DNA of 47,063 bases from a virus. A program made the translations under genes and the position numbers. This document shows, one piece after another, positions 18,505 to 39,002 of the stretch; the stretch's first letter is position 1, and every line of letters starts with the position of its first letter. The notes below the pieces were generated by a model. That model saw only the letters and a list, made by a program, of their open reading frames with translations, was not told the origin of the DNA and ran no database searches. The stretch is taken from positions 1-47,063 of IMG/VR virus record IMGVR_UViG_3300021406_000005; one strand, given 5' to 3'.

Positions 18505-18756
18505 GTGCAGCCGCCCGTCACAACCTCGAGGAGGCTCGACGCGATCGATGCCGAGCGCTTCGAAGAGATGCTGGCGTCGGAATCGTTTGCGCTGCTGAGG
18601 GCGCGGATCGCGGCCGAGCTGGAGCGGGCGCGCACGGACTGCGAGTCTCAGCCTGAATTGCGGGATATTCACCGGGCGCAGGGGGCGGCGAAGGCGCTGC
18701 GGATGACGCTCGATCTTCCGGCCAGAATGCTGACCACCATGAAGGACCGCAAATGA
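18505..18756 (+). CDS. Small helical phage protein downstream of portal
   Basis: An 83-aa product from GTG 18505, one base after the previous TAG. The pattern is FALLRARIAAELERARTD, then LRDIHRAQGAAKALRMTLDLP. Phage proteins with this layout (a SFxLLxxRI helix, then a RxAQGxxxALR helix) commonly follow portal genes and have no known role. Ends with an ATGA overlap. Confidence 0.75.
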   Translation: MQPPVTTSRRLDAIDAERFEEMLASESFALLRARIAAELERARTDCESQPELRDIHRAQGAAKALRMTLDLPARMLTTMKDRK

Positions 18757-19343
18757 AACTCGCAGTTCTCTATATATTTATTTCCGCGCTGGCGTTCGCC
18801 GGGCCGAAAGAAGATGCGGCCGCGATCAAGCAGCTGCAGGCCCAGCACGCTGCCGATCAGATCCTCATCGACAATCTCACTGCCCAGAATGCCCAGCTCT
18901 CCGGATCCGGCACGAAGACCGGGAGGGCCATCACCAAGCTCGCCGCGGCCGGAGCCGACCAGTCCGCTCTCAGCACCAAACAGTCTGTTGCCGTGATCGC
19001 TTCGGTGGAATCTCACGCGGCCGGTGCGCAGGCTGCGGCGGAAGATACGCAGGAAACCGCTGCCCGCATCGAGAACAAGGTAGACGCCATCAGCCCCATG
19101 ATGTCGGTGCCCGTGTGGCTCGCGGCTATAGCCGGCATGGTGTCGGTGATCGGGGTCGCCGGGAGCGTCATGCTCGCTTTTATCAACAAGTCGAAACTGG
19201 CCGAGATCCACATCCTCACCAACAGCAACCTCGCGAAGATCACCGGCGACCTGCAGGTGGCCAACGAGAAAATCGCAGGGCTGCGGGAGCTGGTGAGCTA
19301 CACGAGTAAAGACGCGCCCGCGCCGTCGAATAAAACCGCATGA
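18753..19343 (+). CDS. Exported coiled-coil membrane protein
   Basis: A 196-aa product. Residues 1-17 form a Sec signal peptide or N-terminal anchor (LAVLYIFISALAFAG). A Gln/Ala-rich coiled coil spans about 20-115. A second transmembrane helix lies at about 119-145 (VPVWLAAIAGMVSVIGVAGSVMLAF). It is followed by IHILTNSNLAKI and another helix, a motif seen in phage membrane proteins of unknown role. A lysis (spanin-like) or injection-channel function is possible. ATGA overlaps at both ends tie it to the virion operon. Confidence 0.7.
   Translation: MKLAVLYIFISALAFAGPKEDAAAIKQLQAQHAADQILIDNLTAQNAQLSGSGTKTGRAITKLAAAGADQSALSTKQSVAVIASVESHAAGAQAAAEDTQETAARIENKVDAISPMMSVPVWLAAIAGMVSVIGVAGSVMLAFINKSKLAEIHILTNSNLAKITGDLQVANEKIAGLRELVSYTSKDAPAPSNKTA
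19325..19331 (+). promoter_or_regulatory. GTCGAAT element, N8 before ATG 19340
   Basis: GTCGAATA, seven bases, ATG 19340. TAAAG lies 13 bases upstream of the element, close to the -35 position used by FliA-type sigma factors; the other sites do not show this. Confidence 0.6.
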
Positions 19344-19612
19344 CCTCTGTGAATTCCATCCGCACCGCGCGCTACGCCTTTAACCCGGACGCCGTCTCGC
19401 TCATCGACTTCGGCAAACCCGGGTCCACTTCCGTGATTGTCCACGTCGGACCGAACTCGATCGTTCTCGAGGGCGCTGACGCCCAAGTGGTTCGCGACGC
19501 CGTCCCGGAGTATGAACCCGTTGCAGAAGCGCCCGCGAAAGAACCGAGTGCCGCTCAGATCGCGGACGTGAAGGCGCAGGCTCAGGCCATGACGGCCGCG
19601 AAGCCCGTATAG
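19340..19612 (+). CDS. Small hypothetical protein
   Basis: A 90-aa product. The first half is a beta-rich stretch (YAFNPDAVSLIDFGKPGSTSVIVHVG, PNSIVLEGADAQVV), and the tail is an Ala/Glu/Pro-rich helix (PSAAQIADVKAQAQAMTAA). The start overlaps the upstream stop as ATGA and also carries the GTCGAAT signal, so it may be expressed both ways. Function unknown. Confidence 0.7.
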   Translation: MTSVNSIRTARYAFNPDAVSLIDFGKPGSTSVIVHVGPNSIVLEGADAQVVRDAVPEYEPVAEAPAKEPSAAQIADVKAQAQAMTAAKPV

Positions 19613-19618
19613 CAATCC

Positions 19619-20239
19619 GTGATACTGCGGCTCAGCCTCGTCCTGCCGCTGGTCCTTCTCCTGCCGGCGGCAGAGCAGACCACTCTGAACCTGCATGTAA
19701 CCGGGCAGGTTCAGAGTGTGGCCACGACGAAGAGGAATTTCGGACGGCTCCCGAAGGGCTACCGGGCGGCCGACTGGACGGTGACGAACCAGTCCGCGCA
19801 GCCCGTGAAGGTTTCGCTCGCGCGTTTGCTGCAGGAGATTCACCCCGGTCGAGGCGTTTCAATCCTTTCCGGGGTTTCGGCTACATCGGTGGTCGAGGAC
19901 GCGCAGGGCAGCAATCCGCTGAACACAGTGGCGCGGGTAGGCAGCGGAATTGTGGCGGGGCTGGCTGTGGGCCAAGGGCTCAAGATCATTCCGTCGGGCG
20001 GCTCGTGGCCTACCGTCATTCTCGGGGCCGAAGTGGCCACACTGGTAATGCAGTACGTGTTTCCGACGCTTCAGACGCACGCGCTCCAGTCGATCACGGC
20101 TATGATGCCCGCCACACTGGCTCTCGACGCGCTCGGTACGGAGAGCGGAATGGTGATTGTCGAACTGGCAAAGAAGAGTGCGGATCCACCCACGCTCGAT
20201 CTGACGATTTCAATCCCGTACCTGGAGGCAAAGCCGTGA
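19619..20239 (+). CDS. Exported protein with hydrophobic core segment
   Basis: A 206-aa product from GTG 19619. A signal peptide (RLSLVLPLVLLLPAA) is followed by a beta-rich domain (LNLHVTGQVQSVATTKRNFG, DWTVTNQSAQPVKVSLARL). Next is a Gly/Ala/Val-rich region that may insert in a membrane (VARVGSGIVAGLAVGQG, VILGAEVATLVMQYVF). The C-terminal strands are VIVELAKKSADPPTLDLTISI. Virion or envelope-directed role unknown. Confidence 0.7.
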   Translation: MILRLSLVLPLVLLLPAAEQTTLNLHVTGQVQSVATTKRNFGRLPKGYRAADWTVTNQSAQPVKVSLARLLQEIHPGRGVSILSGVSATSVVEDAQGSNPLNTVARVGSGIVAGLAVGQGLKIIPSGGSWPTVILGAEVATLVMQYVFPTLQTHALQSITAMMPATLALDALGTESGMVIVELAKKSADPPTLDLTISIPYLEAKP

Positions 20240-20550
20240 AGAAACTGATTCTGTTCGTCTCGTCACTCTGTGTCTGCTGCGCGCAGAACCCGGCGGTGCT
20301 GGTGCAGGTTGTGGAATCGCCGGTCCAGGGCGGGAGGATCTGGATGCTCTCGCACACGCCCACCCTCGCGGGAGTCAGCTGCATGCAGGGCGGCGTGGCG
20401 CTGAAGCCGGGTAAAGACTACCTCTGGCTCGGCAGCAACTTCCTGCGGCCCATCAAAGTCAACGCGCAGGGCAACTGGATTCAGTCGTCGTGGCTCCCGG
20501 GGGCGGTCACATGCACTTACCTCTACCAGCCGCCTCCGAAGACGCCCTGA
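20236..20550 (+). CDS. Small exported Cys-containing protein
   Basis: A 104-aa product. GTG overlaps the stop as GTGA and follows GGAGG by eight bases. The N-terminus KKLILFVSSLCVCCAQ is a signal peptide, possibly lipoprotein-type. The mature part (VVESPVQGGRIWMLSHTPTLAGVSC, LRPIKVNAQGNWIQSSWLPGAVTC) is beta-rich with a Cys pair, like a small disulfide-bonded domain. Function unknown. Confidence 0.7.
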   Translation: MKKLILFVSSLCVCCAQNPAVLVQVVESPVQGGRIWMLSHTPTLAGVSCMQGGVALKPGKDYLWLGSNFLRPIKVNAQGNWIQSSWLPGAVTCTYLYQPPPKTP

Positions 20551-20969
20551 TCGCGAAGTATCACGGGATGCTGCTCGGCTACGCGCGCATGATCGGCCGT
20601 CGCGTGTTTTTTCGGGTGCAGGCAGATGACCTTTACCAGTACGGCGCGATCGGTATCCTCCTCCAGTTCCGCCGGTGCGGCGACATCAACATCCGATCGG
20701 CAGCTTTTGGACAAATGATGGACGGCCTGCAGGCGGAAATGCGGAAGGGGAAGTTCTGCCTCACGAACGAATCGACCAACGGCCTGAACGACCTGGGGCC
20801 GGCGCGGGATGACATCCCCGCCATTGAGGCCGCGATCGACATCCGGAGGCTGTGCGCGATCCGCTACGCAATTCCGCTGAGCTACGCCTTCCGCCGAAAA
20901 CTGCGCGAGCTGGTTGGCGAGCCGGCCCTCGGCAGCGGCCCGCACGGTCGAATAAACCAGCAGAAATGA
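20511..20969 (+). CDS. Second sigma-like protein: region 2 intact, region 4 degenerate
   Basis: A 152-aa product. Residues 12-84 match sigma-70 region 2 of the FliA kind: ALIAKYHGMLLGYARMIGRR, RVQADDLYQYGAIGILLQFRRCGD, then DGLQAEMRKG. The rest (RDDIPAIEAAIDIRRLCAIRYAIP ...) is short and lacks a clear region 4 helix-turn-helix, so it may bind core polymerase or -10 DNA without -35 contact. It could be an anti- or co-sigma decoy, or a short sigma. ATG 20511 overlaps the previous gene by 40 bases. Confidence 0.65.
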   Translation: MHLPLPAASEDALIAKYHGMLLGYARMIGRRVFFRVQADDLYQYGAIGILLQFRRCGDINIRSAAFGQMMDGLQAEMRKGKFCLTNESTNGLNDLGPARDDIPAIEAAIDIRRLCAIRYAIPLSYAFRRKLRELVGEPALGSGPHGRINQQK

Positions 20970-21010
20970 CGCCCGAGGCATTCACGCACCCAAGGCCACA
21001 GGAGAAGAGA

Positions 21011-21262
21011 ATGACACCCACCGTAGTGACAACCGCACCTGCGCCCGCGAAGCCCGCGGCCGTCCCCATGCAGATCACCGTATCCCCGACACTGCCCAGC
21101 CACTGGCTGATGATTCTCTCGATCATGTCGGCCGTGCTAAACGCCGAGACTCCGCTCCTGCTCCAGGTCCTTCCTCCGAAGGCAGCTGTCGGAGTGGTCG
21201 GCGGAGACGTAGGACTCGCCGCGATCCTGGCCGCGTATCAGGCCACGCTTCCTCCCGTATGA
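21011..21262 (+). CDS. Small hydrophobic hypothetical protein
   Basis: An 83-aa product. ATG 21011 follows AGGAG with good spacing; an in-frame ATG at 20966 is less likely. A Thr/Pro/Ala N-terminus precedes a moderately hydrophobic stretch (SHWLMILSIMSAVLNAETPLLLQVL) and a Gly/Val/Ala segment (VGVVGGDVGLAAILAAYQ). Possibly a small structural or membrane protein. No family recognised. Confidence 0.65.
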   Translation: MTPTVVTTAPAPAKPAAVPMQITVSPTLPSHWLMILSIMSAVLNAETPLLLQVLPPKAAVGVVGGDVGLAAILAAYQATLPPV

Positions 21263-21609
21263 ACGTGCCCGGCGTGATCAGCGTCCGCTGCCACTACTGC
21301 TCGAAAGAGTATCCGGCGTGGCGCACGCACCAACTGCAGCGGTCCCAGCGCATCTGCGATTACTGTCTCGACTGGCACAACAAGGCGATCGAGTTCCTCG
21401 CGGGGCGCGGGCTGCCCGGCTGCCAGGTGTGCGGGGCCAGCTGGGAATTTCTGCACGATTCAACGCTGGGAGTCGAAGTACGGATGTATGTGGTTCCGAA
21501 AGACGGGATCTACCAGATTCTGTGTGCGACATGCGTCCGGCCATATGTGTCGAAGCGTGCAGACCTCTATGGTGGAACCCGGTTCGGAACTGAGGCCCTG
21601 AACCTATGA
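21259..21609 (+). CDS. Zinc-finger protein with four CxxC pairs
   Basis: A 116-aa product, ATGA overlap. CHYCSKEY, CDYCLDWHN, CQVCGASW and CATCVRPY supply eight cysteines for two zinc sites. The spacing of the first two pairs (about 20 residues) resembles recombination/VII-like or HNH-associated zinc fingers, but no catalytic residues follow. Lies just before the scaffold gene. Function unknown. Confidence 0.7.
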   Translation: MNVPGVISVRCHYCSKEYPAWRTHQLQRSQRICDYCLDWHNKAIEFLAGRGLPGCQVCGASWEFLHDSTLGVEVRMYVVPKDGIYQILCATCVRPYVSKRADLYGGTRFGTEALNL

Positions 21610-22361
21610 CGCCTGCCGACCCAACGACCCTTGTTTCCGCAACTCCTCCGGCTGCTCCCGCAGCCGCTGTAACCGCGGCTCCCGCAGCTGCCGCTCCAGC
21701 CGTCGATACCGCCGCCTACCAGCGGCAAATCGACGAGCTGAAGGAGCAGGTCGCCGAAGGGCAGCGCACTGCGCAGTACTGGGCCGACAAAGTCAAAGCC
21801 GGCGCGCCGACGAAACCGGCCGAAGCGGAAGACGAACCGGACGTGCTTGAAGCGATCACAACCGGCGGAGCGAAGGGCTTCGACAAGCTGGCGAAACAGC
21901 GCGGGTTCATCCAGAGGGATGAAGTCGAGAGCCTGATTAATCAGCGCGCTGCATCTCTCACCGAAGAACAGCAGCTCCTGAAGGAATACCCGGACCTCAG
22001 CAAGAAGGAGTCGGAATTCTTCAGGGCGACGGCACTCGAGTACGGCAAGCTCGTGAAAAGCGGGGTCCCTCAGGCTGTCGCGATGGGCAACGCGGCCCGC
22101 CAGACGGAGCTGGAGTTCATCAAGGCCGGCAAGATCAAACTTCCCGCTGCCGCACAGACGAAAGAAGAGAAGGAAGCTGCCCGGGTGGCCCGCATCGCAG
22201 CTCAGTCCGGAGATACCGGCGCGCGCAGGCCTGCCGCGGCCGACGAAGAAGACGAAGACCTGACGGCGGAGCAGAAACATATCGCCGACGCCATGGGTAT
22301 CTCGCACGAAGCCTACGCGAAACGCGCGAAGAACGGTGTCGCGATGAGAGGGGTCAAGTAG
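21606..22361 (+). CDS. Capsid scaffolding protein
   Basis: A 251-aa product, ATGA overlap. The N-terminus is Ala/Pro/Thr-rich, then comes a coiled coil (YQRQIDELKEQVAEGQRTAQ). An acidic central region and a charged, mostly helical C-terminus follow (EEKEAARVARIAAQS, DEEDEDLTAEQKHIADAMGIS). Length, charge and position two genes before capsid-type proteins fit a scaffold that shapes the procapsid and is then removed. No protease domain is seen. Confidence 0.65.
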   Translation: MTPADPTTLVSATPPAAPAAAVTAAPAAAAPAVDTAAYQRQIDELKEQVAEGQRTAQYWADKVKAGAPTKPAEAEDEPDVLEAITTGGAKGFDKLAKQRGFIQRDEVESLINQRAASLTEEQQLLKEYPDLSKKESEFFRATALEYGKLVKSGVPQAVAMGNAARQTELEFIKAGKIKLPAAAQTKEEKEAARVARIAAQSGDTGARRPAAADEEDEDLTAEQKHIADAMGISHEAYAKRAKNGVAMRGVK

Positions 22362-22364
22362 TCG

Positions 22365-23885: not shown

Positions 23886-23909
23886 AGGACGGCCACGTAA
23901 AGGACACCC

Positions 23910-24833
23910 ATGTTCATCCGCACACTTTTCCCGGATCTCTACCTTCAGTCGATGCTGCCCGCGATCGACGAGGTGGTGATGACGAAGTACTCGCAGTTCC
24001 CGGACGAGTTCAAGGAAGTGTTCCGCATGGAATCCTCCTCGCGCTCGATCGAGCAGACCACCGAAGTCACCGGCTTCGGGCAGTTCGCGGTGATCCCGGA
24101 AGGCGGCGACACCCGCTACGACGAAGCGCTTCCCGGTTTCAACAAAACTTACACGCACGCCCAGTACGGGCTCGGCTTCCGTGTCACGAAAGTGGCCATG
24201 GACGACGACAAATTCGGCGTTGTGAAGAAACTAGCAACTGAGCTGGGGCGTTCGGGCAAAGAAACGAAGGAAGTTACCGTCGCCAACATCGTCAACACCG
24301 GTTTCGCCGGCGTGGTGCTGGGACCGGATGGCGTCGGGCTCTTCTCGACCGCTCATCCGCTGATCGGCGGACAGACTCAGTCGAACCGGCTGAGCTACGC
24401 GACAGATCCGGATGTGACCTCGATTCAGCTGGTACTGACGCTGATGCGGCAGACGCTCGACCAGCGCGGCAAGAAGCTGCGCATCCCGCCGAAGAAAGCT
24501 ATTTTCCCGCCGAATCTCGAATTCATTGGCGCAGAGCTGCTCGGCGGCGACACCCGTCCCGATACGGCCAACCGCGCGATCAACGCTTTCAAGCGGCGCA
24601 GCGGCCTGCCCAGCTTCGACAGCTGGATGGTGTGGGACTACCTCACCGATACGGATGCCTGGATGGTGGAGGGCGACGTAGGTGACACCGAACTCAGGTA
24701 CTACGACCGCGAAGCCTTCAACACCGTGCACGACATCGACTTCGATTCCCGATCGGTGAAGACCGCGGGGTGGATGCGGTTCAGCGCCGGCTACAACGGC
24801 TTCTACGGTATCGTCGGCGTGCCCAGTTCTTAG
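23910..24833 (+). CDS. Major capsid protein
   Basis: A 307-aa shell protein of the HK97/Mu gpT-like type. Diagnostic stretches are QYGLGFRVTKVAMDDDKFG, then LGRSGKETKEVTVANIVNTGF, then GLFSTAHPLIGG-x-TQSN, all typical of gpT-family capsid proteins. It contains no cysteine, in contrast with the exported tail proteins downstream. AAAGGAC precedes ATG 23910. It would assemble on the 21606 scaffold. Confidence 0.85.
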   Translation: MFIRTLFPDLYLQSMLPAIDEVVMTKYSQFPDEFKEVFRMESSSRSIEQTTEVTGFGQFAVIPEGGDTRYDEALPGFNKTYTHAQYGLGFRVTKVAMDDDKFGVVKKLATELGRSGKETKEVTVANIVNTGFAGVVLGPDGVGLFSTAHPLIGGQTQSNRLSYATDPDVTSIQLVLTLMRQTLDQRGKKLRIPPKKAIFPPNLEFIGAELLGGDTRPDTANRAINAFKRRSGLPSFDSWMVWDYLTDTDAWMVEGDVGDTELRYYDREAFNTVHDIDFDSRSVKTAGWMRFSAGYNGFYGIVGVPSS

Positions 24834-24854
24834 TTTTCGCGACGGAAAAACAAC

Positions 24855-25487: not shown

Positions 25488-25898
25488 ATGCAGAATAAGG
25501 CTCTCCGGCGCAACATCATTCCGGCTACGGCGCTGACGGCCGGAACCACCACATCGCAAAGCGAGCAGAACACGTGGGGCCGGGGTATTCGCTTCTATAT
25601 CACGTCGGCCGCAGCCACGGCGGGCGGCGGTGTGGACACGGTTTTCCTGTGCGGGGTGCCTCCTGCGGGAGGAAACGCGGTCCCCGTTGTCGGCTTCGCG
25701 GCTGCAAATGCGTTGAGCGTTGCAGGCGTCTATGTGGCTGACTTCTACCCCGGGGCATGGCTGCCTCCGACCGTGGCAGCCGGCGGCGTGTTACTCGGGG
25801 CGGCCGGCATCGAGCTGCCGGCGAAGTGGGCAGTCCGGATTGTGATGGGAGCGGGAAACGCCGCAACGATCACGGTGGACGCCGAAACGCTACCTTGA
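25488..25898 (+). CDS. Small structural protein
   Basis: A 136-aa product. The N-terminus is basic (QNKALRRNIIPATALTAGTTTSQS) and the remainder is beta-rich and Gly/Ala-rich (GIRFYITSAAATAGGGVDTVFLCGVPP, KWAVRIVMGAGNAATITVDAETLP). Probably a head or tail accessory protein. No family recognised. Confidence 0.6.
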   Translation: MQNKALRRNIIPATALTAGTTTSQSEQNTWGRGIRFYITSAAATAGGGVDTVFLCGVPPAGGNAVPVVGFAAANALSVAGVYVADFYPGAWLPPTVAAGGVLLGAAGIELPAKWAVRIVMGAGNAATITVDAETLP

Positions 25899-25909: not shown

Positions 25910-25916
25910 GTCGAAT
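25910..25916 (+). promoter_or_regulatory. GTCGAAT element, N8 before ATG 25925
   Basis: CCAGTCGAATAACCGCTC then ATG. Fixes the start immediately before a signal peptide. Confidence 0.65.
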
Positions 25917-25924: not shown

Positions 25925-28066
25925 ATGCGGTTCGTTCGGTGTCTCCTTCTTCTGCTGGGCGCTTTCGCTCTCCCCGCCCTTGCGCAGCAATGTCCTCAGG
26001 GGTTCACGCTCACGGGCGGGGTTTGTGTCTCGAATTCCAGCGGCGGGGGCCTCGGGCCGGTCATATTAACCGGCACGCCAACGGCCGGCGAGGTTCCCAC
26101 GGCAACGAGCGGAACGGCTGCAACATGGCAGCCGCTGAGCGGGACAGGCTGCACCACCAGCGGTACTGCGATTCTCAAGGGCGATGGCTCGGGCGGATGT
26201 GCGAACGGCACTGCGGATACAAACTATGCGGCGCCGCCCGGGCAGGTCAACCTGACGTCTTCGGCGAGCATGGCTTATGGGAGCGCAGCCGGCGTTAATC
26301 AGTTCAACGTGACGCTCTCCGCAAGTATCACGTCTCCCGTATGCCCCACTGCCGCGACGGTGGCCAAGGTCACCTACGTGTTCCACATCGTGCAGGCCGC
26401 GTCCGGAGGGCCTTTCACGAATGCATGGCCGTCGTGCTTCCAGAATTTCCCGGCCATAGGCGTTCCCGTCGAAGCCGGGGCGGCGCTGGACGTCGGCGCG
26501 CGCTTTGACGGGACGTTTTTTTGGTCTCAGTGGTCGACGAATACGACGCCGCACGGGATCGTCACGCTGGGCTCGGCTCCGGCGGCCGCGCCGCTCGCCA
26601 ACACGACCGGGTATCCGTTTTACTCACTGGCAGACCAGGATTTCGAGATGGAGATTTTCGGTGGAGGCCTGATGAAAGGCTTCCTTGCCGGGGTCGATGT
26701 GAATCCGGTGACGGGTCAGCTGACAATCTCGCCCACTACCTGCACAAGCCAGCTCCTCAGCGCGATCAGTGCCCGCGGTGCCGGGACCTGCTCCAGTATT
26801 ACGCCGGCAGAGCTGCCCGTGGCCACCACGTCGGCCCTGGGCGCGGTTCAGCCGGACGGATCGACAATCACCATCGTCGCGGGCGTCATTTCGGCTGCCG
26901 CTGCCAGCGGCACTTCGACCCTTACCATTGCCAACGCAGGGAGCACGGGTACGACGATTCACACCCTCACAAAATTGACGGGAGCGCCCAGCACGGCCGT
27001 AATCGCGGCCACGACGGATACAGGCGGCATCGTCGGGGTCACGACATCCGCCAGCGCCACGACGGGCAACGCAACGATCCAGATCAACGGCGCAGCCACC
27101 TGCGTATTTGCAGGCGCCACGACTGCGGGGCACTACGTCGGGATCAGTTCGGCGACGGCAGGCAACTGCGTCGATGCCGGGGCGACTTATCCCACATCGG
27201 GACAGGTAGTCGGCCGCGTGTTGAGTACAAATGCATCGGCCGGGACTTATTCGATTGACATCTTCCCGTCAGAAATTCAGGCTCAGGCCGGGGGCAGCGG
27301 CATCACGAACCTGGCCACGGGCGCCGGGCTTACAGGCGGACCAATCACGACCACCGGCACGATTGCGACCGCAAGTCCTGTCAACGCGCAGACCGGGACG
27401 AGTTATACGGTGCTCTCGACCGATCAGGCGAAGCTCGTCACATTCGCCAATGCCGGTGCTGTGGCCGTCACACTGCCGGTTGGCTCGACTTCCGGGTTCG
27501 GGGCAGGGTGGTACTCGGACCTCACGTGTTACGGCCCTGGCATCGTGACCATCACGCCGACGACCAGCACGATAAATAATGGAGCGTCGGCCTATGCATG
27601 TATGCCCGGATCGGGAGTCCGAATCTTCATCGACGCCTCGAACAACTATCAGATTCAGGCTGGAACCCTGTTTCCGATCATCAGCGGCGGGTCAGGCCAG
27701 GCCAACACCACCGGGGCGACCAGATATTACGCCATTTCCTCAAGCGGCAATGGCGGCGTTGAAGCGGGGGTCTACAGTTTTGCGCCCCAGACCGGCACTC
27801 TGCGAAATCTGACTTTCATGATGGGAACCGCCCAGCCGGCATCGGGATCGTTGACGGTAAATCTGCGAAAGGCGCCCAGCCCGTACACCACTCCGGCAAA
27901 TTGTGGTCTTCAGATCGTTATCGCGGCCTCGGCTGCCGCCGGACTGTATCAGGATCTGACCCACACGTGTTCGGTGCTGCAGGGAGACATTCTCGACTAT
28001 CAGATCGTAAACGCAGCGACGGCCAACTCAGGCAGCATCGTGGGAATGAGCATGTATCTGCAATGA
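25925..28066 (+). CDS. Exported Cys-rich tail-fibre-like protein
   Basis: A 713-aa product. Residues 1-20 are a Sec signal peptide (RFVRCLLLLLGAFALPALA, cleavage before QQ). The mature chain is Gly/Ser/Thr-rich with short repeats (GTAILKGDGSGG, ATSALGAVQPDGSTITIVAG, GITNLATGAGLTGGPITTTGTI) of the kind found in phage tail fibres. It has about 14 cysteines, unlike cytoplasmic virion proteins. The C-terminal 130 residues look like a globular head (GVYSFAPQTGTLRNLTFMMG). Start fixed by the GTCGAAT signal. Its stop overlaps the next start (ATGA). Confidence 0.7.
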   Translation: MRFVRCLLLLLGAFALPALAQQCPQGFTLTGGVCVSNSSGGGLGPVILTGTPTAGEVPTATSGTAATWQPLSGTGCTTSGTAILKGDGSGGCANGTADTNYAAPPGQVNLTSSASMAYGSAAGVNQFNVTLSASITSPVCPTAATVAKVTYVFHIVQAASGGPFTNAWPSCFQNFPAIGVPVEAGAALDVGARFDGTFFWSQWSTNTTPHGIVTLGSAPAAAPLANTTGYPFYSLADQDFEMEIFGGGLMKGFLAGVDVNPVTGQLTISPTTCTSQLLSAISARGAGTCSSITPAELPVATTSALGAVQPDGSTITIVAGVISAAAASGTSTLTIANAGSTGTTIHTLTKLTGAPSTAVIAATTDTGGIVGVTTSASATTGNATIQINGAATCVFAGATTAGHYVGISSATAGNCVDAGATYPTSGQVVGRVLSTNASAGTYSIDIFPSEIQAQAGGSGITNLATGAGLTGGPITTTGTIATASPVNAQTGTSYTVLSTDQAKLVTFANAGAVAVTLPVGSTSGFGAGWYSDLTCYGPGIVTITPTTSTINNGASAYACMPGSGVRIFIDASNNYQIQAGTLFPIISGGSGQANTTGATRYYAISSSGNGGVEAGVYSFAPQTGTLRNLTFMMGTAQPASGSLTVNLRKAPSPYTTPANCGLQIVIAASAAAGLYQDLTHTCSVLQGDILDYQIVNAATANSGSIVGMSMYLQ

Positions 28067-29391
28067 GAACGGCCCTCACGGTTGCGCTTTTGGCTATCCC
28101 GCTCTGCGCCCGGGCTCAGGTCAAAGTAGCTCCCTACTACACACCGGCCGTCGGCTCGAACGCGCTGACCACGGCAGCGACGACGGATACGAGCGTCGAT
28201 GTGCTGGTCTCGGGATCGATGGTCCGGACGCTGATGCCGTTCGCCGGACTTGTCTACCAGATCTCCTTCCCGATCGGCGCCGTGACCCCGACGGCGTTTT
28301 ACGTCTCGAAGGCCACCTGCAGTTCGATGGCGGCGAACGCCTGCACCGTCTTCACGGCTGCTTATGCGCAGACCATCACCGGGCCGTTCACCTCGAACGC
28401 GCTGAATACCTTCACACTGGCGGTGCCCCTTGCCGTATCGAAGTGGGACGCGCTCGCGTTCAGGATCGAATTCAGCCAGCCTCACACCATTAATTTGTCC
28501 CTGTTCACCGCGCAGCCGATCGCCGTCGTCAGCGGGAACGGCACCCCAACGCTCGCGGAGGCGGCTTACTACCAGCTCAATGTCGCCAAGCCGAGCACCT
28601 TCACTCTCTCCGGCATGACGGCCATACCCGCCAACGCGATTCCGGAATTCGGCGCATACATGGCGCCCCCACAGATGCTCGGCATCGGCAATTCGATCAT
28701 GGGGAGCGCGCCCGCGCCCAGCGATTCCGTGGCCGACTCCTTTGCCCAGGATTACCCGATTCCGGCCGTATACTCACCTCTCCATTTCTGGGCGAACAGT
28801 TTCCCGGTTGCGCCGACCTATCAGAGCATGGGCTGGAGCGGACAAACCCTGGTGCAGGAACAGACACGAATGACGTCCGACACTTTGGCTCTGCAGCCGG
28901 GCGGGTACCTGCTCATCGAAGGGGGAATCAACGACATCAACAACTGCTCGGTTACGACCGGATGTACAGGGCCTCAGATCACTGCCATAGAGAACGCGCT
29001 GGCCTCCATGATGTCCGCGGGGCAGTCGGCAGGGGCCAGGACTTTCGTGATGCTGGCCGGTCCCGACCTGCAGTCTCAGAGCGGGTCGAACGCCCGTATG
29101 ACCAGCGAGGACACGATCAATGCGAACACGATCTCAGTCGCGCCTGGATATGGCGCCACTGTCATCGACTGGCGCTGCACTCTGGGCCAGTTCCGGGCCG
29201 GCCAACGCGCAGGAAACTGCTGGGACTGGCAAGCGGCTTACATGTACGGCGACGGTCTCGGAGTCCATCCGAATCAGGCTGGCGTACAGCTGGTCGGAAA
29301 CCTGATCTACGCTGCGTCCCCCTATGCGCCGTCCAACAGCAAACCAGGGGGCGGCTCGAGCGCGGGCGGCTCGAGCGGGGGCATATTTTGA
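28063..29391 (+). CDS. Exported SGNH/GDSL-type hydrolase
   Basis: A 442-aa product. Signal peptide residues 1-18 (RTALTVALLAIPLCARA). A beta-rich N-terminal domain (about 20-200) is followed by an SGNH hydrolase domain: GIGNSIMG with S211, QSMGWSGQTL, EGGINDI with N290, and YGDGLGVHPN with D397 and H402. It would remove ester groups (for example O-acetyl) from capsule or polysaccharide. Here it could be a receptor-processing tail enzyme or a secreted enzyme. The Gly/Ser-rich end and several Cys pairs fit an extracytoplasmic protein. Confidence 0.75.
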   Translation: MRTALTVALLAIPLCARAQVKVAPYYTPAVGSNALTTAATTDTSVDVLVSGSMVRTLMPFAGLVYQISFPIGAVTPTAFYVSKATCSSMAANACTVFTAAYAQTITGPFTSNALNTFTLAVPLAVSKWDALAFRIEFSQPHTINLSLFTAQPIAVVSGNGTPTLAEAAYYQLNVAKPSTFTLSGMTAIPANAIPEFGAYMAPPQMLGIGNSIMGSAPAPSDSVADSFAQDYPIPAVYSPLHFWANSFPVAPTYQSMGWSGQTLVQEQTRMTSDTLALQPGGYLLIEGGINDINNCSVTTGCTGPQITAIENALASMMSAGQSAGARTFVMLAGPDLQSQSGSNARMTSEDTINANTISVAPGYGATVIDWRCTLGQFRAGQRAGNCWDWQAAYMYGDGLGVHPNQAGVQLVGNLIYAASPYAPSNSKPGGGSSAGGSSGGIF

Positions 29392-30335
29392 CCTGGGGCC
29401 AGCTTCGGCTGCAGCTGCAAACCTCGGCGCCCGAGATCCCGCTCGATCTGCTCGACGAGTGGCTGAACACGCGCTATGCCGCAGTTCTCGACGCGACGGA
29501 CTGGATTGGCCGCAAGGCGCATGCCATGATCCAGACCCAGGCCGCCTACCAGTCGGGCACGGACACGGTGACGGCTACGGTGGGGTCGAACGCCATCACC
29601 AGCCTCGGAACCACGTGGACGATTGCCATCACGGGCCAGAAATTCTACATCCCGGGCGACACGGCGGTTTACACAGCAACTTACGTAAGCGGAACGAGCC
29701 TCACGATTGACCGGCCTTACGAAGGCAACGGCTCCGACGCGCCGGGAACGGTTTACGCCAAGGCCTCCTACGTCTTCATGCAGAACGTGTACACGCTGCC
29801 GGCCGACTCGGATAGCGTGGTCACGGTGCTCGATCCGATCACGGGCGAGCCCCTGCAGAGCTTTACGAAAGACGGCCTCGACGCATCGGTCGGCGCGCGG
29901 ACGCTGGTGGGCTATCCGCAATCGTGGGCCGAGTACGACGACAGCCCGGAGTCTTCCCCGCCCGTGCTGCATCAGATCGAGCTCTATCCCCCACCACTCT
30001 ACGCGCGCGGTTTCCCGCTCGAATACCTGCGCAACGCCAACGCCTTCGACGGCATCAGCACCAGCCTGAGCCCGCTGCCCTTCATATCGAGCAACGTGCT
30101 GCTCTATGGCTGCCGGGCGGACATCCAGCTGCATCTCGAAAACTACAAGAAGGCGGAGGGTTACGAGCTGCAATTCGAAGGGGAGCTTGCGCGGTTGCTG
30201 CGGGTCGAGCATCAGCAGCGGAGAGTGAAGACTTCGGTCAAGATGGCATCGCGGTTCACCCGGCACCGGATGGCGAGGGCGGCGCGGGGACTGAACAGTT
30301 CATGGAGAGGCGGGACTTTAGGCGGCCCCAATTGA
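29388..30335 (+). CDS. Head-tail or tail adaptor protein
   Basis: A 315-aa product from TTG 29388, which overlaps the stop as TTGA; no ATG fits. The N-terminus TWGQLRLQLQTSAPEIPLDLLDEWLNTRYAAVLDAT is typical of podoviral proteins encoded before the nozzle gene. A beta insertion follows (TVTATVGSNAITSLGTTWT) and the basic helical C-terminus includes VKMASRFTRHRMARAARG. Probably part of the connector. Confidence 0.65.
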   Translation: MTWGQLRLQLQTSAPEIPLDLLDEWLNTRYAAVLDATDWIGRKAHAMIQTQAAYQSGTDTVTATVGSNAITSLGTTWTIAITGQKFYIPGDTAVYTATYVSGTSLTIDRPYEGNGSDAPGTVYAKASYVFMQNVYTLPADSDSVVTVLDPITGEPLQSFTKDGLDASVGARTLVGYPQSWAEYDDSPESSPPVLHQIELYPPPLYARGFPLEYLRNANAFDGISTSLSPLPFISSNVLLYGCRADIQLHLENYKKAEGYELQFEGELARLLRVEHQQRRVKTSVKMASRFTRHRMARAARGLNSSWRGGTLGGPN

Positions 30336-30336
30336 G

Positions 30337-32346: not shown

Positions 32347-32348
32347 CA

Positions 32349-32359: not shown

Positions 32360-32364
32360 CCCCA

Positions 32365-35300
32365 GTGGGCTACGAGCGTAAATCCCTCCAGATTCTCGGC
32401 GGCGGCTTCAACATGCTTCCGCCCACCGACAAGGTGCCGATCACCGACTACCTTCTCGCGCAGAACTGGCGGGTGGATGCCCTCGGCCGTCTCGTCTCCC
32501 GCGCGGGCTACGCCCCCAAAATCTCAATCGCCGGCGCCGGAATCGCTCATAGCGCGGGCAGCTCCGGAGGCGTGGCGAGCCCGCTGTACGTCGGCTGCAA
32601 CTCCGGAGTGACCAATCCTACGAGCGCGGTCTACTACAACCAGAACGCGACTCCGATAGCCACGGGCTTCGACGGCAACCGCATCGGCTTCGCTTCCCAG
32701 AACGGCTTCATGTGGGTCATGAACCGCGGCAACCAGGGACGCCACAGCGTAGCCAACGGCTGGGAGTCGTGGAATCTCACACCACCTCCGGCGAGCCCGA
32801 CAGTGGCGGCAGGAAGTTCACCGTCGCCGACCTCGAGTGCGACGTACACCTACGGATTCGTGGGCACCACGATAGCCGCCAGCATCACAGGTGGCCCATG
32901 GACGTCGACGCCCGCATCGATGGCCGGCATCACGATCGGGATGAACCTCAGCGTCTCGAATTCCGATTTCAGCCATTACGAGGTTGTGGTGGTCACCGGA
33001 ACGACGGGCACGACGTTCGATGCCACTTACACAACGAGCAAGACCGGACCTGGAATCCTCGTCGGTTTCGCGGATTACGTCCACTCGCTCACCATCGCCG
33101 GGGCGACATATTCATTTGCGCAGAACGGGTACGCGGACAGCCAGATCGCGCTCGTCATCGCGGGCCTAGCGGGCACCGATCCCAACTGCTCGGTCACGTA
33201 CGCGGGAACGGGCAACAACGTCGTCATCACGCCCATCCCGCCCAACATCCTGATCCCGATCAGCGGATCAGACGGCAACACGCCGGAGAATCTGGCAAGC
33301 GGCTCCATCACCAGCCTGCCGAACGGAACCTATCAGTTCTATCTGACCTTCGTGTCGGCCGACCTGTCGCTCGAATCGAACCCCAGCGCGGCTTCCGATC
33401 CGGTGACCGTTGTTTCCCAGGCCATCGTGGTGACAATCCCGGGAGCCGACGCCCCTGTCGATGCGCGGATCGGCTTCGTCCGGATCTATGCGACCGGAGG
33501 AACACTGCTGCAGCCTTACCAGATCGGACAGGTTGCGTCGACCAGCGGTTCTCCGGCCACCACGTTCACCGACACCATCCCGGATCTGCAGGCCACCGCC
33601 AACGGCGTGGTCATGCCAACCACAAACGACCCTCCGCCGCCGGCAGCAGGAATCATCGGGCCGTATTTCTCACTGCTGCTCGCATGGTCGACCGCGGCCA
33701 AAGTGAACCGGCTGTTCTGGACGAACGCAGGCCTTCCCCAATACTGGCCAGGCTCGGCCGATGCGCAGGTCGGCAACTGGGTGGACGTGGGGGACGACGG
33801 AGAAGCAATTGTCTGGTGCTCGATCCACACCAACATGCTGGTGATCTACAAGGAGCGCACGATCTGGATGATGATCGGAAGCTCTCCGTCGACGGCCACG
33901 CTCGAAAAAGTGTACGAAGGCTGCGGTCTCGTCGGGCAGTTTGCGCTGGCACCGGCCGGGATGATCGATTACTTCGTGGGCGCGAACGGGCTGAATGTTT
34001 TCGACATGAACGCGGTGCACGAAGTCTCGGGGGCGATTCTCCCGATCTTCAATCAGAACTTGAGTAACAACGGAGAACTCACGCCGCCAGGGTCGGTCCT
34101 TGCCGGGACCGCCAATAACTCGACTTCGACGGCCGCGTATGCGATCGCGCTGGGCCACGCGAACGGAAAGCTGTACGTGTCCTACCCCGACAAGGGCGGC
34201 GATCGCTGCACCATGGTCTACAACGAAGGGAACCAGCCGGAGACGAACGCTTATATCGGGGCGCAGCCGGGCAAGTGGTTCTACCACCGCAACGCCGGAG
34301 GCCTCGGATTCTTCGGCTTCCTCTTTGACGGGACCGCCATGCTCGGACTCTCGGGGCCGCTCGGCGGGGCGGCGGTGGGCTGGAACGTCGACGACTTCCG
34401 CGGGTTTCTCGTCGAGGACCCGGACACGGCGGCGATCAGTTGCGTCTATCAGTCGCACTACGAAAACTGCGGGCAGCCGGACAATCCGAAAATCTGGCTG
34501 GAAGTGGTGATCGACATTGAGCTCGCCGGCGACTCGGCGAGCGTGTACGCGGGGTTCAACGGCGGCATCCTGGCTCTGACGTCGATCGGCACCATCTCGG
34601 CGTCGGGCCGGTCTCAGACCTCGTTCGCTCTGGGAGGCCCCCTCACAAAGAACGTCTCGATCGCCGTCGTTGTGCCGGCGACCGCGGGCGTCGTGATCCT
34701 GCACAACGTCTACATTTACTTCTATCTCGAAGAGAGGTACGCGCTCGCCGCTTACACGCTTCCCTCGGATCTCGGGGTGGGAAAGATCAAGCAATGCAAA
34801 GAAGTCGAGCTCGACATCAACAACGCGGTCGGCACGGCCACGCTGCATGTGGCTTCGGATCTGCCCGGTAATGCGATGGCGGTTCGGGAGACGATCACGA
34901 TCCCGCTTGGGACTCAGCGGCGCATTTACAAGTTCCCGTTCGCGACGATCGAGGGCCTGCTCTGGCAGGTTGCCGTGACTGCCTCGGGCGCGAACGTCTT
35001 CCAGCTCTACGGCGCCCGCGTGCTGATGCGCGTCATGGCCGTTTACGTGGAAGGCTATGAATCGACAGCCGGGTTTGTGTGGGACTCGATGCAGCAGGAC
35101 CTGGGCGACGGAGACGTCAAAACCTTCGACCAGATCCGGTTCGACATGGAGGCCGGTGGAGCTTCGACGGTCACGATGCTGACCGATCTGCCAGGCGAGT
35201 CTTTCAGCATTCGGGCCAACTCACTGGCACTGACAGCCGGTGGGACATCCCGCGCATGGGTGACCGTTCCCCTGCCCGACCCTTATGGCGCATCGGCAAT

Positions 35301-35850
35301 TGAGGGGCGATCGGTCCAACTGCAGGTGACGGGCAACACCGGATTCAAGCTCTACAAAGCCCAGGTGAGGGCGAACAGAGTCGGGCGCTACCTGATGGGC
35401 ACGGCTCCGGATTCGGCGAATGACGCCTTCACCACACTCGAATTCGATTTTGCTTCGGAGCGGGCGAAGGTGTTTAAGCGCCTCGAAATCGATATGCGGG
35501 CCAACGGGACAGTGTTCTTCACCATCATCACGGACCAGTCGGGTACTCTTGCAACGATCTCCGGGCCCACGGGCCTGGCAGCGTCGGGACGCCAAACCGT
35601 GATGCTGCCGATGCCGCCGGGAGTGCGGGGGCGCCTGATGCGCCTGATCCTGACGTCGACCGCGGCGGCGCGAATCTACAAGATCCGGGTGTGGACCAGA
35701 CCGCTGAGTGAGCCGAACGGGAACTGGAAGTGGGAAGACTTTCCACTTGAGACTTCGGATGTTGTCGCCTCGTGGAAGGACCTGATCGCGGAGGAGACAA
35801 CCCCGGTGTGGCAGTGGGTCGATATCCCGTTCACGGTGACGGACGCATGA
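32365..35850 (+). CDS. Large tail protein, nozzle/DNA-stabilisation-like
   Basis: A 1161-aa product. After DYLLAQNWRVDALGRLVSRAG the N-terminal 350 residues are Ser/Thr/Gly-rich beta structure. A central part contains VNRLFWTNAGLPQYWPGSADA, then NWVDVGDDGEAIVW, then MLVIYKERTIWMMIG, the recurring pattern of podoviral tail nozzle or packaged-DNA-stabilising proteins. Three similar C-terminal blocks follow (each with a strand, an F-D-M/L-D element and a V/IP-LP turn, about 830-1130), like repeated jelly-roll modules. GTG 32365 is set by GTCGAAT. Probably the bulk of the short tail. Confidence 0.7.
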   Translation: MGYERKSLQILGGGFNMLPPTDKVPITDYLLAQNWRVDALGRLVSRAGYAPKISIAGAGIAHSAGSSGGVASPLYVGCNSGVTNPTSAVYYNQNATPIATGFDGNRIGFASQNGFMWVMNRGNQGRHSVANGWESWNLTPPPASPTVAAGSSPSPTSSATYTYGFVGTTIAASITGGPWTSTPASMAGITIGMNLSVSNSDFSHYEVVVVTGTTGTTFDATYTTSKTGPGILVGFADYVHSLTIAGATYSFAQNGYADSQIALVIAGLAGTDPNCSVTYAGTGNNVVITPIPPNILIPISGSDGNTPENLASGSITSLPNGTYQFYLTFVSADLSLESNPSAASDPVTVVSQAIVVTIPGADAPVDARIGFVRIYATGGTLLQPYQIGQVASTSGSPATTFTDTIPDLQATANGVVMPTTNDPPPPAAGIIGPYFSLLLAWSTAAKVNRLFWTNAGLPQYWPGSADAQVGNWVDVGDDGEAIVWCSIHTNMLVIYKERTIWMMIGSSPSTATLEKVYEGCGLVGQFALAPAGMIDYFVGANGLNVFDMNAVHEVSGAILPIFNQNLSNNGELTPPGSVLAGTANNSTSTAAYAIALGHANGKLYVSYPDKGGDRCTMVYNEGNQPETNAYIGAQPGKWFYHRNAGGLGFFGFLFDGTAMLGLSGPLGGAAVGWNVDDFRGFLVEDPDTAAISCVYQSHYENCGQPDNPKIWLEVVIDIELAGDSASVYAGFNGGILALTSIGTISASGRSQTSFALGGPLTKNVSIAVVVPATAGVVILHNVYIYFYLEERYALAAYTLPSDLGVGKIKQCKEVELDINNAVGTATLHVASDLPGNAMAVRETITIPLGTQRRIYKFPFATIEGLLWQVAVTASGANVFQLYGARVLMRVMAVYVEGYESTAGFVWDSMQQDLGDGDVKTFDQIRFDMEAGGASTVTMLTDLPGESFSIRANSLALTAGGTSRAWVTVPLPDPYGASAIEGRSVQLQVTGNTGFKLYKAQVRANRVGRYLMGTAPDSANDAFTTLEFDFASERAKVFKRLEIDMRANGTVFFTIITDQSGTLATISGPTGLAASGRQTVMLPMPPGVRGRLMRLILTSTAAARIYKIRVWTRPLSEPNGNWKWEDFPLETSDVVASWKDLIAEETTPVWQWVDIPFTVTDA

Positions 35851-36542
35851 GCGGCCAGATTCCCGGCATCCCCCAGGCGGCAACCGGGACAATTCTTGTC
35901 AACCACATCAACGACAGGCTGCGGAGGATTTCGCAGGAGCTGGGTCCGGGCGCTACGGGCAAGCAGGGCATACAGGGAATCCCCGGAACGTCCAGCGGAA
36001 CGCTCACTGCCGGGGAGGCGGCTTACGCCAATACCGTGACGAGCGCAACGCTGACGCCCGACCTCACGAAGTCCAACATTCAGCAGGTGGTCATCCCGGG
36101 CGCCTCGACAACCGCGTCGGCGAGCAGTGGCGCATCGAGCATCACCGTGGCGTCTGCAACCGGGATTGCGATCGGCGAGCTGGTGCAGGGGGCCGGGATC
36201 GCGGCGGGGTCCCTCGTCGGACCGGGCTATGCGGGAGGAACGACGGTACCCCTGACGATCAACACGACCGGGATTCTCAGCACCACCCCGGTGACCTTCA
36301 GCACCACGACGATCGCACTCACCCAGCCGAGCGGCCTGCCCACCGGCAGCTTCAGCTGGTCGCTGGTGGCCGACAATTCGAATGCCGCGGCCTGCGCCCT
36401 CATTCCGGACGGGACCTACGGGATGGCGGCCGGGGTCCCCATAAATCCGGGCACGCGCACGGTGCTCAACTTCGTCACGACGCAGAGCGGTAACACGACC
36501 CAGATTTCCGTGGTGGCGAATCAGGCCATCATCCCCCTGTGA
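35847..36542 (+). CDS. Tail fibre/spike adaptor with short collagen-like segment
   Basis: A 231-aa product, ATGA overlap. The helical start (ILVNHINDRLRRISQEL) is followed by a collagen-like GATGKQGIQGIPG at about residue 36-48. The long beta-rich Ser/Thr/Ala region has two mid repeats (ASSITVASATGIAIGELVQG, VPLTINTTGILS). It looks like a trimeric stalk linking the spike to the nozzle. Ends 27 bases before the spike start. Confidence 0.6.
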   Translation: MSGQIPGIPQAATGTILVNHINDRLRRISQELGPGATGKQGIQGIPGTSSGTLTAGEAAYANTVTSATLTPDLTKSNIQQVVIPGASTTASASSGASSITVASATGIAIGELVQGAGIAAGSLVGPGYAGGTTVPLTINTTGILSTTPVTFSTTTIALTQPSGLPTGSFSWSLVADNSNAAACALIPDGTYGMAAGVPINPGTRTVLNFVTTQSGNTTQISVVANQAIIPL

Positions 36543-36554
36543 ACTAACCCGCCA

Positions 36555-36561
36555 GTCGAAT
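36555..36561 (+). promoter_or_regulatory. GTCGAAT element, N8 before tailspike GTG
   Basis: CAGTCGAATAGCCGGTA then GTG 36570, base-for-base the same as the portal signal. Confidence 0.7.
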
Positions 36562-36569
36562 AGCCGGTA

Positions 36570-39002
36570 GTGAAGCTCCGAACGTTCTTCCTGTCGCTGG
36601 CGCTGTGCAGTTTCATCCCGGCTCCGGTCCGCGCGCAGGCCGTTTGCCAGCTGTCGGTGTGTATCTCGCCCGTCAATTCCGCGAACGTCACCGGGCTCAA
36701 CGATGCCACGAGCGCAGGCACGTTCATCTCGTTTCCGGCAGCTAACCAGTACCGCGCCGAAATCCACACAACCGGCACACCGGACACCATCGAAGTCTCG
36801 GTCAATGGCGGCGCGTTCGGATCGCCGATCAACCTTGTGGCCGCCACTCCGCTGGCGCTCGGGGACGGGGTAACAATCATATTCGCGGCCTCGACCGGTC
36901 ACACCCTGAGCGACTACTGGCTCATCACGACAAGAGCGAACGGTTCGCTGAACCAGGAAACTACCGTCGCTCCCGTGCCGCTCGCGGGTTTCCGCAACGC
37001 GCAGGACAAGGCGTCGGACATCTTCACGGCCAAAGACGCGGGGGCGAAGGGCGACGGTATCACGGACGACACTGCGAATATTGCCAAGGGACTAAACGGG
37101 CTGTGCCTGGGAGGCGGGGGACACCTCCTGTTCTCGGATGGAGCCTACATGCTGAACGCGGCTTCATTGCCGCTTCCGATGTGCGACAACATCGAGATCA
37201 GCGGTCAAAACGCCACCCTGATGATTATCGGTGGTTCCGGTTCGTTCAATCAGATTTTCGGGACGCGAGGGCAGACGGTCAACAACTTCCACCTGCACGA
37301 CGTGGCCGTGAACATGAACTCGAGCAACAACGCGCTCGTGAGTTCAGGCGACTTGGGGAGCCACTGCCGCTGTGTCCTGGTGTTCGGGAATCCTACCGGC
37401 ATGGCTGCAACCGGTTCGAACGTGCAGATCGATCATGTGACCGTCTCGGACGTCCGCTCGACGTGGGTTTTCCGTTCGGGTGCCAGCCCCACATCGATAA
37501 CAGACAACCTCATCACCAACGTGGGCGGCGGTACCGTCGCCGCGGACTCTTCGATCTTTTACCTTGACGGGAACGGCGAAGCCGTAGTCGGCAATCAGAT
37601 CATCTCGGCCTCGCCCGATCAGAACCTGGCAGTCACGGCAATCGAGACGCACGGCAGCGCGCAGGTGATCACCGGGAACGTGATCGTGAATATGCAGGTG
37701 GGGATGAACGTCACCGGAATATCCAACGTGACGGCAGAAGGCGGGGCGGTCACCGGGAACACACTGGCCGGGGTTTTTCAGGGCATAGATATCTGGAGCC
37801 AGTCCCTCTCCGGCGGAAGTTACCCCTCGGGGTGCGGGATCGATAATTTCGTCGTGTCCAACAACTCGATTCAGGTCGACCAGCTCTCGTACCTCTCCCT
37901 CGAAACCGCAGGCGCGCAGACGTTTGGAATCAATCTGAACGGCGGCGCGACCCTGAACTTCTGCCACCTTAAAGTCAACCAGAACTCGGTTACTTTCGAC
38001 CTTTCGAACTCGGTGACGGAGCCTCTGAACGTCAGCAACGCCACGCTTGGCATCGGCTACTACGACGTGAGCTCGGGGGGCTTCTCCTGCATCGACTGCG
38101 ATTACGGGTACAACACCGTTGCGAACAGTCCGCTTTCCGCTTTCCGGTACCAGGCGAACGGGCAGAATATTTCCTTCGACGGCGACATTTGCATCGATGG
38201 AGGGTCGCATCTGAATCCGGCACTCAACGGCGTCTTTCGGTCCTGCTTCTTCCTCGCCGAACTGGCCGGGGCGCCGATTGTCGGAGATATGAGTGCGAAC
38301 AACTCGAAGTGCATCGACGACCTGGCCACGTCGCGGTCCGTTTACTGTTACGTTCTTGCCGCAAACACAACGGGCCAGTTCACCGTGGATGGAGCGGAGG
38401 TAACCTGCCTCGACGCGACTTGTGCGTCCATGGCTACCGGCGGTGGCACGGATTTCAATCTCGTCGGCCCACCGTCGCCGCCCCCCTTCATCAGGGCTAC
38501 GGCTCACGTTCCCGGCGGCGCGCTGGTGCCCAACAGCGGAAGCGGGCAGCCCCAAATCAGCAGTTCTATCCTCGACACAACGAACCAGCTGCAGTACATC
38601 TTTACGGGCGCTCAGGGATGGCTCAACCCCGACGTGGGCCACATCACGCCACTGACCACCAGCAATCTTACAAACTGCGGCAGCGGGGCAACTGTCGGTC
38701 TCAGCAGCACTGACCGGGCAGGAACTATGCAGATGGGCACTGGCCCGACTACCTGCGTCATAGCGTTTACGACCACCTTCGTCGTGCAACCTGTCGGTGC
38801 CGTGACGCCTTACCAGGAGCACACTTCCAACATTTTCTACACTATTTGCCTCACGATCACGGGTGGAGTGCCTACCAGCTGCCTGAACAACAACGTGACT
38901 TATGTGGCATCGGCCCCGAGCTTCGGTGTGACCCCGTCGCTGATATCGATCTCCGGCGCGTCGACCGGCGACATTTTCGGCTGGAGCTTTCATGGCAACT
39001 GA
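36570..39002 (+). CDS. Exported beta-helix tailspike, pectate-lyase-like
   Basis: An 810-aa product. A Sec signal peptide (KLRTFFLSLALCSFIPAPVRA, ending near residue 23) precedes a beta domain. At residues 154-167, AKDAGAKGDGITDD is the entry motif of pectate_lyase_3 right-handed beta-helices found in phage spikes. The helix runs to about residue 620, then a C-terminal head. About 20 cysteines are spread through the mature chain, implying disulfides. It is likely the capsule- or LPS-degrading receptor-binding protein, unusual in being secreted-looking. Start fixed by GTCGAAT. Confidence 0.75.
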   Translation: MKLRTFFLSLALCSFIPAPVRAQAVCQLSVCISPVNSANVTGLNDATSAGTFISFPAANQYRAEIHTTGTPDTIEVSVNGGAFGSPINLVAATPLALGDGVTIIFAASTGHTLSDYWLITTRANGSLNQETTVAPVPLAGFRNAQDKASDIFTAKDAGAKGDGITDDTANIAKGLNGLCLGGGGHLLFSDGAYMLNAASLPLPMCDNIEISGQNATLMIIGGSGSFNQIFGTRGQTVNNFHLHDVAVNMNSSNNALVSSGDLGSHCRCVLVFGNPTGMAATGSNVQIDHVTVSDVRSTWVFRSGASPTSITDNLITNVGGGTVAADSSIFYLDGNGEAVVGNQIISASPDQNLAVTAIETHGSAQVITGNVIVNMQVGMNVTGISNVTAEGGAVTGNTLAGVFQGIDIWSQSLSGGSYPSGCGIDNFVVSNNSIQVDQLSYLSLETAGAQTFGINLNGGATLNFCHLKVNQNSVTFDLSNSVTEPLNVSNATLGIGYYDVSSGGFSCIDCDYGYNTVANSPLSAFRYQANGQNISFDGDICIDGGSHLNPALNGVFRSCFFLAELAGAPIVGDMSANNSKCIDDLATSRSVYCYVLAANTTGQFTVDGAEVTCLDATCASMATGGGTDFNLVGPPSPPPFIRATAHVPGGALVPNSGSGQPQISSSILDTTNQLQYIFTGAQGWLNPDVGHITPLTTSNLTNCGSGATVGLSSTDRAGTMQMGTGPTTCVIAFTTTFVVQPVGAVTPYQEHTSNIFYTICLTITGGVPTSCLNNNVTYVASAPSFGVTPSLISISGASTGDIFGWSFHGN

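Follow-up and report, generated by a model that had tools for sequence, protein, structure and literature searches.

Three large late genes in the phage record IMGVR_UViG_3300021406_000005 of IMG/VR, starting at positions 25925, 28063 and 36570, appear to encode fibre-, spike- or depolymerase-like proteins that begin with cleavable signal peptides. All 47,063 nucleotides (nt) of this record were analysed as one stretch, called the window below, and genes are named by their start positions. Export of such fibre- or spike-like proteins is predicted with high confidence and formation of disulfide bonds in the mature proteins with only slightly less, while the proposal that the exported proteins join the virion falls a little short of an even chance. 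Taken as a whole, the explanation that we favour, at about even probability, is that 25925, 28063 and 36570 form a replaceable set of proteins made together with the structural genes, exported by the host Sec system, folded oxidatively and most likely added to virions at or after lysis. If Sec-exported fibre- or spike-like genes are indeed common to a whole group of abundant soil phages, either virions are finished outside the cytoplasm or these phages make regular use of tail-type proteins as free exoproteins.

Signal peptides and gene starts

The gene order of the late strand is of the standard kind, and its head part consists of portal 15581, scaffold 21606, capsid 23910 and two small decoration-like genes. 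They are followed by 25925 and 28063 (slot A) and by adaptor-type genes 29388, 30546 and 31248, downstream of which are located 32365 (large stabilisation-type protein), 35847 (fibre-type protein with the motif NDRLRRI), 36570 (slot B) and genes of ejection-type proteins; terminase and a phage sigma factor are encoded on the opposite strand. The open reading frame listed at 27901 has its true start at 28063. This start and that of 29388 overlap the stops of the preceding genes (25925 and 28063, respectively), which implies tight coupling to structural genes. The elements of main interest are (aa, amino acids):

25925..28066 (+), first gene of slot A (713 aa), signal at residues 1-20, mature start QQCPQGFTLTGGVCV, 14 mature cysteines, fibre-like, beta-rich
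25925..25984 (+), codes for the signal peptide of 25925
28063..29391 (+), second gene of slot A (442 aa), signal at residues 1-18, GDSL/SGNH hydrolase, 6 mature cysteines
28063..28116 (+), codes for the signal peptide of 28063
36570..39002 (+), slot B gene, 810 aa, signal residues 1-22, pectate-lyase-like beta-helix signature, 20 mature cysteines
36570..36635 (+), codes for the signal peptide of 36570
25910..25916 (+), GTCGAAT, beginning 15 nt upstream of gene 25925
36555..36561 (+), GTCGAAT, beginning 15 nt upstream of gene 36570

An earlier, sequence-only reading had noticed Sec-type signal peptides at six starts (18753, 19619, 20236, 25925, 28063 and 36570), and all six do combine a positive n-region, a hydrophobic core and small residues at −3/−1. 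The product of 18753 begins with MKLAVLYIFISALAFAGPKED; cleavage is predicted as MILRLSLVLPLVLLLPA^AEQ for 19619, MKKLILFVSSLCVCCA^QNP for 20236, MRFVRCLLLLLGAFALPALA^QQC for 25925, MRTALTVALLAIPLCARA^QVK for 28063 and MKLRTFFLSLALCSFIPAPVRA^QAV for 36570. The signal score used here is a rule-of-thumb heuristic written for this analysis, not SignalP. Only 0 to 11 of 1000 shuffled N-termini reached the real score for the six genes, and a score of 12 was attained by 2 of 584 internal start codons and by 1 of 215 non-coding open reading frames. Counted after the cleavage site, the six proteins contain, in the order of their starts, 0, 0, 2, 14, 6 and 20 cysteines, which makes the earlier estimate of about 14 and 20 for 25925 and 36570 exact; the capsid protein 23910 has none, as had been stated. 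The observation of Sec-type signals and of cysteine-rich large products is confirmed.

Starts of 25925 and 36570 had been considered fixed by the heptamer GTCGAAT, and this proved right: the element begins exactly 15 nt before both of them and, in relatives of the phage, the distances of CGAATA from gene starts show a sharp peak at −13, made up of 56 starts. The same element lies 15-16 nt before portal 15581, 19340, 32365 and 10310, and another set of gene starts used in the analysis puts 18336 and 11225 at this distance too. Its occurrences include positions 15566, 19325, 25910, 32349 and 36555 on the plus strand and 10736 on the minus strand. A Shine-Dalgarno-like stretch precedes 629 of 1850 genes, and many have none. 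GTCGAAT may be a start signal of another kind. It may also belong to a leaderless promoter as its −10 element, recognised by the RNA polymerase sigma factor that the phage encodes at 14171-14827 (−), whose gene stands beside terminase in nearly all larger relatives.

Nature of the exported proteins

Product of 28063 matched Lipase_GDSL_2 (PF13472) with E 2.6e-9 and 38.2 bits against the curated cut-off of 32.9, while the match of 36570 to Pect-lyase_RHGA_epim (PF12708; E 7.4e-6, 26.4 bits) is just under the curated cut-off of 27. For 25925 no PHROG or Pfam match and no tail-fibre family was found, and it is placed by position only. Neither a pattern search of viral contigs nor tblastn of cultured phages gave close homologues of 36570 and 28063, and AlphaFold models, made without alignment, are of low confidence (pLDDT 32 for 28063 and 33 for 36570). 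The fibre or spike character of the large proteins is supported by the pectate-lyase signature, the GDSL hydrolase and PHROG tail-fibre matches in relatives, and also by tail-spike matches of a 36570 homologue that has no signal.

The three small proteins are different. Genes 18753, 19619 and 20236 lie between portal and scaffold, gave no tail-protein match and are probably not tail genes; 18753, with a second hydrophobic segment near residue 112, is rather a predicted envelope protein. Thus, the label of tail proteins, which had been attached to all six, suits only 25925, 28063 and 36570.

Recurrence in related phages

Relatives were collected by portal and capsid alignment (56 and 80 viral loci) and reduced by capsid to 77 distinct phages. 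Slot A, defined as the position after the decoration-like genes, is complete in 49 of them, and slot B follows the gene of the 35847 type. At least one signal-peptide gene was found in 34 of the 49 complete slots; the others mostly hold nothing beyond decoration-like genes and no fibre gene. The same rule applied to portal, capsid, scaffold, adaptor and ejection families gave 0%. Weak matches among structural families were limited to two small alanine-rich ones; proteins of the 25488 family were excluded as weak false positives (18% at a loose threshold, 0% at 13). At slot B of relatives, large proteins with or without a signal occupy the same position, and the signal-less NDRLRRI protein is present in nearly all of them. 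Signal-bearing fibre-like genes, which the survey proposed earlier was to look for, are thus, as far as gene content can tell, a lineage-wide trait and not a quirk of one genome.

The 69 signal-peptide proteins fall into 27 homology families, so different passengers have met the same export requirement, although 40 of the 69 are connected by common modules. Collagen, pectate-lyase, GDSL, laminin-G, carbohydrate-binding (CBM5/12) and F5/8 type C domains were registered among them, as well as PHROG tail-fibre families. Most members have A^Q or A-x-A cleavage sites and a few have long n-regions (e.g. loci L114 and L152); the second slot A gene of L152, with an in-frame signal from a GTG start, was counted as signal-bearing.

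The signal appears to be detachable. In record G010 (locus L085), whose portal is 80% identical to that of the window, and in locus L001 the slot A module is present as a bare protein beginning with MCPQGY. In L001 the start codon directly follows the preceding stop, so no signal can be encoded there. For 36570, too, a homologue without a signal was found in G010; it retains the N-terminal region of 36570, with which it aligns from residue 40 (31% over 208 positions, E 9e-14), has one cysteine only in common with it and matches PHROG tail-spike families. Since both fibres occur in G010 without a signal, their mature regions can exist without export. The sequence GAGCGAGCGAGC is found exactly twice in this record, immediately upstream of the two signal-less fibre genes (18952 and 25885). 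In another relative (G002, locus L083) the NDRLRRI protein is apparently fused in frame to a beta-helix spike, which suggests that docking to the virion is the task of NDRLRRI and that the exported spikes of other phages may be partners that have become separate from it.

Hosts and cysteine parity

Capsid matches in bacterial genomes point to Bryobacterales (Acidobacteriota) as probable hosts of the window lineage: four of five were in Bryobacterales metagenome-assembled genomes, and the fifth was on a contig binned with a Streptosporangiaceae genome of the same kind, which we take for mis-binned. Further capsid homologues were found in Terriglobia genomes, where prophages G392 and G170 carry signal-peptide genes beside the adaptor gene. 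In one Terriglobia prophage-bearing host genome 12 of 21 secreted proteins have glutamine at +1, that is the A^Q pattern. This strongly suggests that phage signals are recognised and cut like those of host secreted proteins.

Proteins that are exported and form disulfide bonds are known to favour even numbers of cysteines (PMC7678975). Exported proteins of the phages with at least two mature cysteines gave 48 even counts against 5 odd, whereas control families were even in 41% of cases (counted from one cysteine upward) and non-exported host proteins were divided as 23 to 20. Part of this bias is background, because even numbers also prevail (425 against 253) among those non-exported phage proteins that are unclustered and have two cysteines or more. 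Counts were made before and after refinement of predicted cleavage sites, as some odd values stemmed from misplaced ones, and parity improves when counting starts at the cleavage site. DsbA-like thioredoxins were found in all six host genomes. Taken together, recurrence in the lineage, the absence of signals from canonical structural families, even cysteine numbers and host-like A^Q sites give good support to export and oxidative folding, as proposed in the earlier interpretation; its assignment of the three small genes to the tail is probably wrong.

Cultured Tunturiibacter phages

A similar arrangement exists in cultured podoviruses of Tunturiibacter. In the tail region of Tunturi_1 (PP887698) and Tunturi_2 (PP885685) five genes begin with a signal peptide; they are annotated as tail fiber, tail spike, pectin lyase, virion structural or hypothetical proteins, and in the region examined no other large spike candidate was found. 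In Tunturi_2 the mature forms contain 20, 10, 20, 1 and 34 cysteines. A metagenomic relative of these two phages (L236) carries signal-peptide genes too. The siphovirus Tunturi_4 carries a pair of them beside a tail-fibre gene that lacks a signal; its gp114 is 46% identical to gp17 of Tunturi_2 and has its own signal directly before the common domain. No signal-peptide genes were found in the region examined of Tunturi_3, which infects the same host strain, or in the available regions of the distant Manatee Spring lineage, taken as a negative control. In this sample the trait, thus, seems to follow Acidobacteriota hosts, though not every phage of them. Annotated acetyltransferases were also seen near the fibre genes of Tunturi_1, Tunturi_2 and Tunturi_3.

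Other genes of the window

Genes that border the slots or carry the remaining signals are:

15581..17929 (+), portal (head-to-tail connector), marker for collecting relatives
18753..19343 (+), small signal-peptide protein, 196 aa, no cysteines
19619..20239 (+), small signal-peptide protein, 206 aa, no cysteines
20236..20550 (+), small signal-peptide protein, 104 aa, 2 mature cysteines
23910..24833 (+), major capsid protein, no cysteines, no signal peptide
25488..25898 (+), small decoration-like protein that bounds slot A on the left
29388..30335 (+), conserved tail/adaptor-type protein that bounds slot A on the right
32365..35850 (+), large tail/stabilisation-type virion protein, no signal peptide
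35847..36542 (+), signal-less fibre-type protein, NDRLRRI motif, left border of slot B

The gene that follows the slot B spike, 39003-39806 (+), encodes a product beginning with EPFPEYAWPMAWGW, for which no Pfam match was found. Small genes resembling it (PFP...W.W...R...DDF) occupy the same place in several relatives and prophages, and a fibre-modifying enzyme is a possible identity. The very large ejection-type protein 41838-46595 (+) has a ddrB-like ParB domain (PF18763, E 7e-13) and homologues of 1200 to more than 3000 aa in relatives. A small protein with a lipobox-like LLLLGGC is encoded at 7730-7984 (+) and could be an outer-membrane spanin or another lipoprotein.

Possible role of the exported proteins

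According to the favoured explanation, the signal would be recognised and cut at A^Q as in host secreted proteins, and the mature proteins would fold with disulfide bonds in the oxidising periplasm; both steps are strongly suggested by the sequence. The exported proteins would then presumably remain in the periplasm while heads are filled in the cytoplasm, the two meeting only when the cell lyses, and spikes would most likely dock onto finished heads, as P22-type tailspikes can. Late docking is favoured because the exported proteins are the main spike candidates in Tunturi_1, Tunturi_2 and several relatives. A further reason is that homologues without a signal are found at the same position.

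Several points weigh against this explanation. Signal-less spikes in the same slot mean that export is dispensable in some phages, the signal-less NDRLRRI protein 35847 could be the real virion-bound fibre, and no virion-docking domain has been demonstrated on the exported proteins. VKOR, a possible oxidising partner of the DsbA-like proteins, is present in just one of six host genomes. Even cysteine counts are not independent in proteins linked by modules, so their nominal p-values overstate the case. Finally, the paper on the Tunturi phages mentions neither signal peptides nor mass spectrometry, and the term 'structural protein' does not occur in it either.

A serious alternative, to which we assign roughly one chance in three, is that the exported proteins never enter the virion and act as free depolymerases, esterases or lectin-like decoys, modifying the host surface, blocking superinfection or clearing polysaccharide. 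It gains weight because a separate NDRLRRI fibre without a signal is present in nearly all relatives; the enzyme- and carbohydrate-binding-like passengers and the two genes of Tunturi_4 beside its own signal-less fibre are also in line with it. However, the genes are located inside the structural run and vary like those of receptor-binding proteins, no other large spike candidate was seen in Tunturi_1, Tunturi_2 and many relatives, and proteins of such size would need a further step across the outer membrane before lysis.

It is improbable that the genes are morons, i.e. host secreted proteins carried as cargo to serve the lysogen as surface adhesins or exoenzymes. Host-like signal peptides, a tyrosine-recombinase-like gene at 3256 and related prophages in Terriglobia contigs would suit such a role, but cargo would be expected near an edge of the genome and under a promoter of its own, while these genes keep the slot and strand of late genes in dozens of phages, have start/stop overlaps with virion genes and match tail-fibre PHROGs. 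Least probable of all is an uncleaved hydrophobic N-terminus serving as membrane or virion anchor during assembly, which had been listed among the earlier options: long hydrophobic cores and the few long n-regions agree with it, but strong cleavage motifs, the beginning of signal-less homologues at or near the mature N-terminus and the better parity after the cleavage site do not.

Returning to late docking, one can tentatively extend it, with somewhat less confidence than for the window itself, to Acidobacteriota tailed phages of at least two unrelated capsid lineages, in which heads would fill in the cytoplasm, disulfide-locked receptor-binding spikes would mature in the periplasm and the infectious particle would be complete only at lysis. 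Genes with a signal peptide are usually not counted among those of the virion. If fibre- and spike-like proteins of these phages are indeed exported, this would change the search for receptor-binding proteins and their expression, for which oxidising hosts would be needed. The cultured Tunturiibacter phages make the question testable now.

Comparison with known systems

Assembly of tailed phages is, in the textbook view, cytoplasmic, and to our knowledge tailed viruses do not routinely export fibre or spike proteins. No paper on signal peptides of tail fibres as a lineage trait was found in the open literature, which is weak evidence, as many subscription journals lie outside this scope. The closest parallel is the cluster of Tunturi_1 and Tunturi_2, which resembles the window in its run of signal-peptide, mostly even-cysteine fibre, spike and pectin-lyase proteins in short-tailed Acidobacteriota phages but belongs to a different capsid and portal lineage; a search of cultured phages with the window portal revealed no relationship to them.

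P22-type tailspikes and beta-helix depolymerases share with 36570 the place in the tail gene run, the pectate-lyase signature, which is borderline in 36570, and high variability. Addition of spikes to otherwise complete heads is possible in P22 as the last step, also in vitro, but known tailspikes of this type are made and folded in the cytoplasm without signal peptide or disulfides, whereas 36570 is an apparent Sec substrate with 20 cysteines; its G010 homologue is signal-less like the P22 type. In filamentous phages pIII and pVIII are virion proteins with Sec signals, finished outside the cytoplasm, and pIII has disulfides. Unlike the phage of the window, however, these phages have no tail and cause no lysis, and are assembled in the inner membrane during extrusion. 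Tailed phages also use Sec for SAR endolysins, spanins and T4 RI, the last of which has a cleavable signal (PMC8385771). These are small envelope or lysis proteins and, in contrast to the large proteins of the window, not fibre- or spike-like; it is to them that 18753, 19619 and 20236 might be nearer.

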